From positions 1 to 64,000 of the forward strand of contig JADGDV010000007.1 of assembly GCA_016744695.1 (NCBI GenBank): 64,000 nucleotides of DNA, written 5' to 3'. The first letter of the stretch is position 1. Each line of letters begins with the position of its first letter. Positions 22,701-46,518 of this stretch are shown here, piece after piece. Position numbers and translations under genes: made by a program. This DNA is from Hahellaceae bacterium. GTDB lineage: Bacteria; Pseudomonadota; Gammaproteobacteria; Pseudomonadales; Oleiphilaceae. The notes below the pieces were generated by a model that did no database searches, was not told the origin of the DNA, and was given only the letters and a program-made list of their open reading frames with translations.

Positions 22701-23688
22701 TAAAGTCATAATCACGAAGATGCTTCGCTAAATCACGAATTTCTCTTTCGCCTGACAGAAAAACTAGAATATCGCCAAAAGATCTCTTAAGGGTGCGCTC
22801 TTCATCAATGATTTCAGTTACGGCTTGTGCAACGGCATCGTTAATACTAAGCTCGCCATCGTTATCACTTGCATCAAAAGGAGGCCTATAACGCGCTTCA
22901 ACAGGGTAAGTTCTTCCCGTAACCGCTATAACAGGGGCGTTATTGAAATGTGCAGAGAACCTTTCTACATCAATGGTTGCTGATGTAATAATAACTTTGA
23001 GGTCAGACCTTTTAACGAGTAATTTTTTTAGATAACCCAGTAAAAAATCTATATTCAGACTTCTTTCATGTGCCTCATCTATAATAATTGTGTCATAGGC
23101 ATTGAGATATCTATCGCGCTGAATTTCGGCCAATAAAATACCATCTGTCATCAGCTTAACACGTGTTGTATTTGACACTTTATCGGTAAAACGAACCTGA
23201 TAACCAATGACGTCACCTAATTCACAACCTACCTCCTCAGCAATTCGCATTGAAACCGCTCTGGCGGCTAATCGACGAGGTTGTGTATGGCCAATCAAAC
23301 CTTTAATACCGCGCCCCAGGTTCATGCAGATTTTGGGGATTTGTGTCGTTTTACCTGAACCTGTTTCACCGGCAATAATTACAATCTGATTATTTTCAAT
23401 AGCCTTTGCGATCTCATCGCTCTTTTGGCTAACCGGAAGCTCAGGCGGGAATATAATAGAAGGCCTAACCTTACCCCTTGCCTCTACCTGTCTAAGTGAA
23501 TGATCAATCTTTGACTGTAGCTCATTCAGCGCACGTTTTTTTTTCACATCGTCATCTAGCTGTCGCACTTTAGATAAGCGACGGCGCAAAAAAATTTGAT
23601 CTTTAATAAGGCAATCGCCTATCTGCACTTGAAGTGTTGAAGCTGAAATAGTCTTTTGTGTTTTATCTACAGTCATATCATCATTCAA
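19762..23688 (-). CDS. hrpA: ATP-dependent RNA helicase HrpA (DEAH box)
   Basis: 'IAGETGSGKTTQIPKICM', 'DEAHERSLNIDFLLGYLK', 'SATID', 'QRMGRCGRVAEGICYRLY', 1308 aa. Confidence 0.95.
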   Translation of the reverse strand: MNDDMTVDKTQKTISASTLQVQIGDCLIKDQIFLRRRLSKVRQLDDDVKKKRALNELQSKIDHSLRQVEARGKVRPSIIFPPELPVSQKSDEIAKAIENNQIVIIAGETGSGKTTQIPKICMNLGRGIKGLIGHTQPRRLAARAVSMRIAEEVGCELGDVIGYQVRFTDKVSNTTRVKLMTDGILLAEIQRDRYLNAYDTIIIDEAHERSLNIDFLLGYLKKLLVKRSDLKVIITSATIDVERFSAHFNNAPVIAVTGRTYPVEARYRPPFDASDNDGELSINDAVAQAVTEIIDEERTLKRSFGDILVFLSGEREIRDLAKHLRDYDFKDTEVLPLYARLSAADQQRVFKSHRGRRIVLSTNVAETSITVPGIRYVIDPGTARVSRYSYRSKIQRLPIEAISQASANQRMGRCGRVAEGICYRLYGEDDFNNRPEFTDPEILRTNLASVILKMIDLGFGKIEEFPFVDRPDTRLINDGFKLLFELGAVTDKRMMTDQGRSLAKIPADPRIGRMLVEANKQGCLSEVLIITSALSIQDPRERPQEKMQASDQAHAKYKDPDSDFIAFVNLWNGFEEQRQELSSNQLKKYCQRNFLSYMRMREWREVHRQLHLVCKELKYIENQEPSSYNAIHQSLLSGLLNNVGEKYEKKEYIGARNRRFNIFPGSGCYKKTPKWLVSAELVETSQVFARINARIEPEWLEPIAAHITKCTYFEPHWEQKRAQAVAFQRISLYGLDIVSKRKINYGSIDPVVSRELFIRHALVQGEFKSSAPFWRENMQLIEQVDELETRLRKKDILVDDDTLYEFYDECIPKSIISGRYFDSWWKKLNSKDLQSLKLTKEFLMRRDATEVSEDNYPDTIALNNINFELNYSFKPGKEGDGVSILVPGAAVRQLPLNRLEWLVPGLLREKCIQLVKSLPRSLRKNFVPVPDYVDAALEKMQPSNESLISVLGKHLTRMTGVLIPEESWNQEGIDDHLKFNVQVVDKKGAVEKESRDVLGLMDDFKDVKFEVPKSDNKGSALYEKEILAWDFGVLEVDKEVDQGGMKINLIPALEDHKKHIKLILCNDRLSANRKTIRAIARLTLIALPDQVRYAIDKLPKFQQTSLLFAPYVKAADLIDDLLMGTVIQQLSERDFPRSEEQFQAWLNDIRSVFFEQASELAVIVNDIASKHHQLMKKLKGKINIALAHSLGDLKLQLTNLVYLGFISETPKEWLLHYPRYLQASNDRFEKMPREMGNERTFLAMISGCWEQYLAIKQKHEQQGIVDPELETYRWMIEELRVSCFSQKLGTAMTISEKRLNKQWVQVRR

Positions 23689-43602: not shown

Positions 43603-44205
43603 TCAATCTTCAACAGGCTTTCGCCCTGCCAACGCATGACTTAAAGTACTGCCATCGACATACCCCAACTGACCACCTACAGGAATACCGTGTGCGATTT
43701 TAGTCACTAGAATATCACTACCGTCCAGCAAGTCAGCTATATAAAGTGCTGTGGCATCCCCTTCAACGCCGGAGTTTGTTGCCAGTATCAATTCGTGAAT
43801 AGAGGCTTCAGCAATAAAGCGTAATAACTTATCGATACCAATTTCTTCTGGCCCAATACCGTCAATGGGAGATAAGTGCCCCATTAAAACAAAGTAACGA
43901 CCATTGAAATTTCCAGATTGTTCTATTGCCATTAGGTCGGATGGTGTTTCTACAACACATATAACCCCTGTATTTCGTCGTTCATTAGTGCATATTTTAC
44001 AAATATCTTGCTCTGCAAGGTTTTGACATTGCTGGCAACGCCCTACTCCATCCAATGAAGCCGTGAGCGCTTTAGATAGACGAGCGGCTGAGTATCGGTC
44101 TCGCTCAAGTAATTGCAAGGCCATACGCTGTGCAGATTTACTTCCTACACCAGGCAAGCAACGCAGCGATTCAATTAATTCATCAACCAGAGGACTAAAA
44201 CTCAT
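43603..44205 (-). CDS. recR: Recombination protein RecR
   Basis: 'LPGVGSKSAQRMALQLL', zinc finger 'CQQCQNLAEQDICKIC', Toprim. Confidence 0.95.
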   Translation of the reverse strand: MSFSPLVDELIESLRCLPGVGSKSAQRMALQLLERDRYSAARLSKALTASLDGVGRCQQCQNLAEQDICKICTNERRNTGVICVVETPSDLMAIEQSGNFNGRYFVLMGHLSPIDGIGPEEIGIDKLLRFIAEASIHELILATNSGVEGDATALYIADLLDGSDILVTKIAHGIPVGGQLGYVDGSTLSHALAGRKPVED

Positions 44206-44247: not shown

Positions 44248-44574
44248 TTAAAACGGCATTTTAAAACCAGGGGGCATTTCCATACCTGCTGTCATACCAG
44301 ACATTTTGCTTTTATTCGCTTCTTCAATTTTCCTTACAGCATCATTTACAGCCGCGGCTAAAAGATCTTCTAGCAACTCTTTATCTTCTTCTAATAAAGA
44401 AGGATCAATCGTTACCTTTTTAACATCATGTCGACCAGTCATCACGACTTTAACTAAACCAGCACCTGACTCACCATTAACCTCTGCATTAGCGAGCTCT
44501 TCTTGCGTTTTCTGGAATTGTTCTTGCATTTTTTGGGCTTGCTTCATCAATTCGCCCATTCCACCTTTATTCAT
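44248..44574 (-). CDS. ybaB: YbaB/EbfC nucleoid-associated protein
   Basis: '[56 protein letters not shown]'. Confidence 0.95.
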
Positions 44575-44598: not shown

Positions 44599-46518
44599 TT
44601 AGGGATCTATTGGCTCTACTGTTGACTGTAATATGGTTGCATCAAAGCTATTTACAAGGGAGGCGACGTTAGGATCACCTTCTATGGCGCTTATTGCCAA
44701 CGTTAGTCGCTCCTGCTTCTTTCTATCTTTCCACTCAGAAGGCGTTTCAATATCAGGGCTTCCCATGACAAACTCGACCAGAAATGTTTCACCAAACTGT
44801 TGTTTGAATGCACCGACAATCCTAGATTTATGTGTTTCATTAAGTAGCCTGTAAGTGCCTTCAGATGCACTTAAAACAGCAGAGTTCTCTGTAAGATTCA
44901 ACCCTGTATTTGATGCTAAATTCTGAGTCATGCCTGATAGTTTCAACAAAGGAATAATATGCGGCCAAGCATTTTCCATTGTTAAAAATGATGCTATGTC
45001 GCAACCATTGATTTCAGGCTCACCTACTTCTTGTTCTTCTACTTTGCACTCATCAACTACGGGGTTTAAATCTTCAGCGTTTATTGGCTCAGCATTTAAC
45101 GTTTCTACATCAATAGAAACAGGGTCAACAACAGTCTCAATGGATTCTTGAACTGGAGGCGCTATGGATTCAATCGTTTTTTTTTGAGTAAAATCTACCC
45201 CTTGCTCAACAGACTCACTCCCTTGTGATTGCATATAGCTTTCATCATAAGTGGGCTCATTAAGCTGAGGATCGATAAAAGCCTGAGGCTCTGCTGAAGA
45301 GCCTTGCAAATCAACGGCAACATCATTGACAGCAACCGATGACTCAACTTGATTAACCTGCTGAGTTACGGGTTTATCAATAACACTCCCCGCTTCAGAG
45401 TTCTGTAATTGAACCTTTACGGGCGCTTCACCTATATTAGGCTGAAAGGCGAGCATTCTCAGCAACACCATCTCTAAACCAGCTCGCTGGTCTGGAGATA
45501 TAGGAAGGTCACTACGACCGACTAGTGCTACCTGATAAAACAATTGTACGTCTTCTGCAGATAAAGCTTTTGCTAATTCAACTATTTGCTGTTGATCACC
45601 CATCGAATTATCAGTGCTTTCTGGCACTGCTTGCTCTATCGCCACACGATGCAACACTGAAATGACATTTGCTAATACTGAACTGTAATCAGGGGAGAAC
45701 TCAGCCAATGAAGTCACTTCTGACAGCACCTGACGTGCATCAAGGTTAGCCACTGCTTCGATAATTCGGTAGACCTGCTTTTGGTCTATTGAACCGAGCA
45801 TGGCACTAACTTCACTCTCGGTTAAATTGTTATGCCCGTAAGCAATGGCCTGATCAGTTAAACTTAAAGCATCACGCATACTTCCATCTGCGGAACGAGC
45901 CAACAACCATAATGCACTGTCTTCAAATGCAATTTGCTCTTGCGTTAACACATTCTTCAAGTGGCCAACAATTCGCTCAGGAGGCATATTCTTCAAATTA
46001 AACTGAAGGCAACGAGACAAAATAGTAACGGGCAGCTTCTGGGGGTCAGTTGTCGCAAAGAGGAATTTTACGTGCTCTGGGGGCTCTTCAAGTGTTTTAA
46101 GCAAGGCATTGAAACTAGATGAGGAAAGCATGTGTACTTCATCTATCAAGTACACCTTAAATCGACCTCTGGTAGGCGCATACTGAACATTATCAAGCAG
46201 TTCACGCATGTCTTCTACTTTTGTTCTTGAGGCAGCATCTATTTCAATAAGATCAACAAAACGGCCTTCAGTGATTTCCCTACAGGTATCACACTCTCCA
46301 CAGGGTACTGAGGTTATTTTGCTTTCACAGTTTAGACATTTAGCAAGAATTCGACCAATGGTCGTTTTACCAACACCGCGTGTGCCAGTAAATAAATAAG
46401 CATGGTGTAGCCGTTGCTGATCAAGCGAATGTATTAATGCTTTTAATACATGCTCTTGCCCTACCATTTCTTTAAAATTTTGGGGGCGCCACTTTCTTGC
46501 GAGAACCTGATAACTCAT
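44599..46518 (-). CDS. dnaX: DNA polymerase III subunit tau (and likely gamma)
   Basis: 'MSYQVLARKWRPQNFKEMVGQEHVLKALIHSLDQQRLHHAYLFTGTRGVGKTTIGRILAKCLNC'; synteny dnaX-ybaB-recR. Confidence 0.95.
   Translation of the reverse strand: MSYQVLARKWRPQNFKEMVGQEHVLKALIHSLDQQRLHHAYLFTGTRGVGKTTIGRILAKCLNCESKITSVPCGECDTCREITEGRFVDLIEIDAASRTKVEDMRELLDNVQYAPTRGRFKVYLIDEVHMLSSSSFNALLKTLEEPPEHVKFLFATTDPQKLPVTILSRCLQFNLKNMPPERIVGHLKNVLTQEQIAFEDSALWLLARSADGSMRDALSLTDQAIAYGHNNLTESEVSAMLGSIDQKQVYRIIEAVANLDARQVLSEVTSLAEFSPDYSSVLANVISVLHRVAIEQAVPESTDNSMGDQQQIVELAKALSAEDVQLFYQVALVGRSDLPISPDQRAGLEMVLLRMLAFQPNIGEAPVKVQLQNSEAGSVIDKPVTQQVNQVESSVAVNDVAVDLQGSSAEPQAFIDPQLNEPTYDESYMQSQGSESVEQGVDFTQKKTIESIAPPVQESIETVVDPVSIDVETLNAEPINAEDLNPVVDECKVEEQEVGEPEINGCDIASFLTMENAWPHIIPLLKLSGMTQNLASNTGLNLTENSAVLSASEGTYRLLNETHKSRIVGAFKQQFGETFLVEFVMGSPDIETPSEWKDRKKQERLTLAISAIEGDPNVASLVNSFDATILQSTVEPIDP
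45170..45185 (-). promoter_or_regulatory. Candidate recoding site in dnaX (A9 slippery run)
   Basis: CAA AAA AAA ACG; -1 frame reads AAC GAT TGA, +1 frame reads CGA TTG AAT CCA TAG. Confidence 0.6.

Follow-up and report, generated by a model that had tools for sequence, protein, structure and literature searches.

In the dnaX gene examined here, a run of nine A's lies in the linker between the domains of the encoded clamp-loader subunit. The question that it raises is whether one gene gives two proteins, the full-length tau subunit and a shorter, gamma-like one, and whether the switch between them would be made by the ribosome or by RNA polymerase. The general production of gamma and its usefulness are debated. 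The original prediction for this locus held that a gamma-length product is made at the run, either by frameshifting or by slippage. We examine this proposal by sequence comparison, using the five genomes that are available for the genus (L001 to L005, Oleiphilaceae) and a sample of 193 dnaX genes, nearly all of them from one order of Gammaproteobacteria. The window, i.e. the whole stretch of DNA analysed, comprises 64,000 nucleotides of a source genome of 4.07 Mb in 77 contigs.

Gene and Predicted Products

The gene, the domains of its product and its neighbours are as follows.

44599..46518, minus strand: dnaX, tau subunit of the DNA polymerase III clamp loader, 639 aa, a single ORF
DnaX residues 233-357: Pfam DNA_pol3_gamma3
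DnaX residues 514-633: Pfam DNA_pol3_tau_5 (alpha-binding, domain V)
44248..44574, minus strand: ybaB/ebfC, next in the operon after dnaX (TIGR00103, 116.6 bits)
43603..44205, minus strand: recR (TIGR00615)

The dnaX product scores 802.8 bits against NCBIfam PRK07994 (NF005942; cutoff 613), and the gene order dnaX-ybaB-recR is that of E. coli. A scan of the dnaX gene against Rfam gave no family at gathering score. The candidate recoding site consists of three elements.

45177..45185, minus strand: A9 slippery run, dnaX codons 445-448, CAA AAA AAA ACG
45170..45172, minus strand: TGA stop of the -1 frame, reached via one extra A in the mRNA or a -1 ribosomal shift, predicted product 449 aa
45162..45164, minus strand: TAG stop of the +1 frame, reached via one A lost or two A's added, predicted products 451-452 aa

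The zero frame around the run reads ACT CAA AAA AAA ACG ATT GAA TCC, and the -1 reading continues past it as AAC GAT TGA. The run in a 639-residue dnaX, the two stops and the -1 product of about 449 residues, as originally described, are thus all confirmed in the sequence. Both stops lie at most five codons from the run; for the window gene by itself, this closeness is not statistically significant.

Messages with seven, eight, nine, ten, eleven and twelve A's are predicted to give DnaX of 448, 451, 639, 449, 452 and 640 residues, respectively, the last being tau with one extra lysine. The predicted products of 448-452 residues retain domains I-III and are without the alpha-binding domain V, which is the architecture of gamma. 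In the mechanism that we favour, the single dnaX gene would give tau (639 aa) as well as shorter subunits of the gamma type (448-452 aa, about 50 kDa). RNA polymerase would add or, less often, drop A's on the run, resulting in a mixed pool of mRNAs. Messages with nine or twelve A's would be read through to tau, and the others would meet the TGA (-1) or the TAG (+1) within a few codons. In E. coli transcription, insertions in homopolymers become more frequent the longer the run, up to nine bases, and most of them are of a single base (PMC5574713).

Conservation of the Run

One alternative is that the linker, which contains lysines, carries the run by chance or as a low-complexity feature, that recoding is not programmed there, and that tau is the only product that matters. 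This would fit the observation that 86 of the 193 sampled dnaX genes have no site, and also the report of tau as the sole product when a number of dnaX genes, that of P. aeruginosa included, were expressed in E. coli (PMC3290774). Furthermore, a pattern search finds 57 overlapping A9 nonamers in the 4.07 Mb source genome, some of them inside other genes (about half of the matches were examined for context).

The statistics of the linkers argue against this alternative, however. When the window linker's own codons are shuffled, a run of nine or more A's arises in only 0.35% of the trials. The 193 linkers, most of which come from a single order, contain 26 runs of nine or more A's, compared to 0.51 expected, i.e. 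an excess of about 50-fold. The counts are 82 for A6 and 25 for A9-A10, with a dip to 3 for A8 in between.

The comparison within the genus points in the same direction. A run of exactly nine A's in the same phase is found in all five genomes, at positions that span codons 445-580. Synonymous changes, the suggested sign that such a run has no role, have not broken it in these relatives: the codons CAA AAA AAA are identical in 5/5, in a surrounding linker that cannot be aligned. As a control, columns of conserved lysine in the N-terminal domain of the five genomes have identical codons in 3 of 13 cases, and those of glutamine in 6 of 18. The A9 runs in other genes behave differently: for three genes of the source genome that have genus orthologues (a helicase, an HrpA-like helicase and a third gene), the run is interrupted in 12 of the 12 orthologues. 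The A9 run alone is thus not unique in the genome, and it is its conservation that singles out the run in dnaX. In view of these results, we regard a chance origin as very improbable.

The run in the HrpA-like helicase gene lies within the window, at 23536-23544 on the minus strand. It is a second in-frame A9, located near the start of the gene and absent in four genus relatives, and it is likely a source of truncated product or noise.

Another possibility is that the run is kept for the peptide that it encodes, for example as a site of protease cleavage or interaction, and that any gamma would arise by proteolysis, as is known for Caulobacter (PMC5009743). QKKT is indeed invariant in the genus, and no other consecutive residues of the DnaX linker are. 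However, a peptide would not account for the invariance of the synonymous codons. In addition, the sister genus retains A9 or A10 mostly in another reading phase, and encodes KKKT, KKKR or QKKT there. Since the run is found in another phase with other residues, it is the bases and not the residues that are conserved, and a role of the peptide is extremely unlikely.

The stops are also maintained. The -1 TGA, the conservation of which had been proposed as a check, is kept at the same position in 4/5 genus members, the exception being L005, where the close -1 stop has been lost and the -1 frame is closed only at the ninth codon. The +1 TAG is retained in 5/5, L005 included, and both shifted frames are closed within nine codons in all five. 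The TAG is formed across an NTA|GCN codon pair ahead of an alanine, in which NTA encodes I, L, L, I or V in the five members. The chance of finding NTA before this alanine in 5/5 is about 0.004 if the genomes are taken as independent, an estimate that is based on codon usage and was made post hoc.

On the strength of the conserved run, the claim that a gamma-length product is made here can be upheld: the A9 run is very probably a conserved recoding site for gamma-length DnaX.

Ribosomal Frameshifting versus Slippage

We now consider at which level the recoding would take place. In the first scenario, E. coli-type -1 ribosomal frameshifting would occur on A_AAA_AAA, aided by an upstream Shine-Dalgarno (SD)-like element, to make a gamma of 449 aa. 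Two stimulators had been described at the site.

45198..45203, minus strand: SD-like AAGGGG, 12 nt upstream of the run, a doubtful stimulator
45148..45173, minus strand: proposed weak hairpin UUGAAU...GUUCAA, not supported

The heptamer A_AAA_AAA is present in frame within the run, with the -1 TGA two codons on. The AAGGGG has a calculated duplex energy of -10.1 kcal/mol, placing it among the best 4% of its own linker. Furthermore, as in E. coli, no lysine tRNA other than tRNA-Lys(UUU) was found, and sister lineages in the order use A_AAA_AAG. All of these features are consistent with a ribosomal shift. On the other hand, the E. coli heptamer A_AAA_AAG is absent in frame at the window site, where a C follows the run. 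On E. coli ribosomes, A_AAA_AAA is much less prone to shift than A_AAA_AAG (PMC5009743), and a ribosomal shift does not need nine A's.

The SD-like element described about 12 nt upstream is present in the window gene, but it can be recognised in only two of the five genus members: it has a counterpart in L004 and is absent in L002, L003 and L005. The hairpin can be drawn, but it was rejected as a stimulator because its stability is no better than that of shuffled sequence (fold z of +0.7 for 50 nt, -0.26 for 40 nt and +0.45 for 60 nt). Downstream stretches of 40-60 nt in L001-L005 likewise give z of about 0. The same method applied to E. coli dnaX as a control yields z of -2.8 at 40 nt, 0.1 at 50 and -0.7 at 60, which indicates that the stem test has limited power.

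The frames provide a further distinction. The loss of the close -1 stop in L005, together with the retention of the +1 TAG in 5/5, fits the needs of slippage and not those of -1 frameshifting alone. The variation of the run phase between related genera also speaks against the ribosomal scenario. Taken together, the weak conservation of the SD-like element, the null result for the hairpin and the closure of both frames shift the likely mechanism from an E. coli-type -1 shift to slippage of the Thermus type. We consider transcriptional slippage to be probably the main route to gamma at this site. An origin of gamma by -1 ribosomal frameshifting appears unlikely, but the ribosome may contribute in this species. 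Our inference is that RNA polymerase slips at the run and that gamma both builds up and has a use.

Two Site Designs in the Order

A recoding signal of either design is present in 107 of the 193 dnaX genes. A_AAA_AAG is found in 81 genes and A9-A11 in 26 (denoted A9+ below), and the remaining 86 have neither; among the relatives in the order that have a site, most thus bear the E. coli-type A_AAA_AAG.

The two classes were compared with tests in which related genes are treated as independent, so that relatedness has to be kept in mind when reading the p-values: the median distance to the +1 stop is 5 codons in A9+ genes and 15 in A_AAA_AAG genes (p=1.6e-7), while synonymous resampling gives p=0.0014 for closure of both frames in A9+ genes. 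For the A_AAA_AAG genes the corresponding value is 0.94, and the preference seen there is for the -1 stop (p=0.0034) and does not extend to the +1 stop. Upstream, an SD-like element is found in 23% of the A9+ genes vs 79% of the A_AAA_AAG genes, and the median z of the downstream stem is 0.04 vs -1.31. In the A9+ genes, the run occurs in phases 0, 1 and 2. A tree-controlled pair test of frame closure and SD-like element, for which there are 3 supported pairs only, is not significant. The A9+ and A_AAA_AAG designs differ in the way that two mechanisms would predict.

This has two consequences. The level of decoding would be predictable from the sequence, with one closed frame, an SD-like element and a stem for one design, and two closed frames without these elements for the other. 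Moreover, close relatives that have either design or none would make it possible to test directly why a lineage adopts one of them.

A number of genes in the sample have unusual sites. Two candidate sites per linker, an A8 and an A9, each with a -1 stop directly after it, are found in the dnaX genes of the Osedax symbiont Rs2 (L115) and an Oceanospirillaceae MAG (L123), and in Neptunomonas marina (L065) A_AAA_AAG occurs in two sites at a distance of four codons, each with a -1 stop nearby. Four genes of one family (L362, L363, L369 and L371; family f39) have A10 followed by G, giving A_AAA_AAG in frame, but the +1 stop is closer to the run than the -1 stop; they resemble slippage sites at which frameshifting might occur as well. 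Other slippery heptamers are mostly absent from dnaX genes without a run, CCCAAAG with a close -1 stop being found in L019, L033, L035 and L037. In the last three of these (genus g5), the CCCAAAG is in frame, the -1 stop is four codons on, and there is no A-run, making it possible that it is another shift site.

Comparison with Known Systems

In Thermus, gamma arises by slippage on nine A's, and nearby stops close both non-zero frames (PMC1088944, PMC5009743). The window gene resembles Thermus thermophilus dnaX in that tau is encoded in one ORF, the run is A9, and both shifted frames are closed nearby, and the short product predicted here is likewise without the C-terminal region of tau. All Thermus-type sequence features that were tested are found here, namely the A9 in a one-frame tau, the nearness of both stops, and, for the class as a whole, indifference of the run to phase and the weakness of stimulators, although the window gene itself has an SD-like element. 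The differences are that the present gene is from the Gammaproteobacteria, and that the site is located about 70% along the gene, compared to about seven-eighths in Thermus (PMC1088944).

With E. coli dnaX, the window gene shares the operon order, the predicted type of product and the close -1 stop, and the position in the linker is equivalent (codon 428 of 643 in E. coli, 445 of 639 here). It differs in that the run has no AAG, the SD-like element and stem are not conserved, and the +1 frame is closed too. The poly-A run is also reminiscent of the two-ORF dnaX genes with A7-A10 detected by GeneTack, for example in Chlorobium, for which slippage has been proposed (PMC3711429). There, however, slippage is needed for tau, whereas here tau is in the zero frame and gamma would be the recoded product. 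Judged by these sequence features, the site is most likely a further case of the known Thermus-like slippage design, in this case in the Gammaproteobacteria. A 2012 review held most bacteria beyond enterobacteria and Thermus to be without dnaX frameshift signatures (PMC3290774).

Evolution and Lysine tRNAs

In a tree of the DnaX N-terminal part, calculated with a quick method for the 193 rows, the A9+ label requires 11 changes (gains or losses alike), at least 6 of them on supported branches. The window gene belongs to a supported family clade that contains zero A_AAA_AAG genes by best-site class. The A9/A10 genes of this clade come from the window genus, the sister genus and one other genome, and its remaining genes are without a site. 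A run-type site is absent from the sampled Pseudomonas and Halopseudomonas dnaX genes, in agreement with the tau-only report for P. aeruginosa.

The presence of two lysine tRNAs has been proposed as a possible reason why Thermus uses slippage (PMC5009743). We considered a second lysine tRNA (CUU) as the reason in the present case, but the 44 tRNA hits of the genome, all but one of them called by ARAGORN, did not include any. Unlike in Thermus, tRNA-Lys(UUU) is the sole lysine tRNA detected, in two copies, as in E. coli. The two-lysine-tRNA explanation therefore does not fit this lineage. Overall, it seems somewhat more plausible than not that within one order of Gammaproteobacteria dnaX has repeatedly switched among A_AAA_AAG frameshifting, A9-A11 slippage and no recoding, with slippage used here despite tRNA-Lys(UUU) being the only lysine tRNA.

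Finally, a strict tRNA-Lys pattern misses 5/5 genus genomes. In the two tRNA-Lys(UUU) copies (L255 and L256; G000:C41:251589-251826) and in those of the genus mates, the T-arm is changed to ..GGGCGTTCGAGCCG, and in nearly all other family members it reads ..GGTTCGAATCC.
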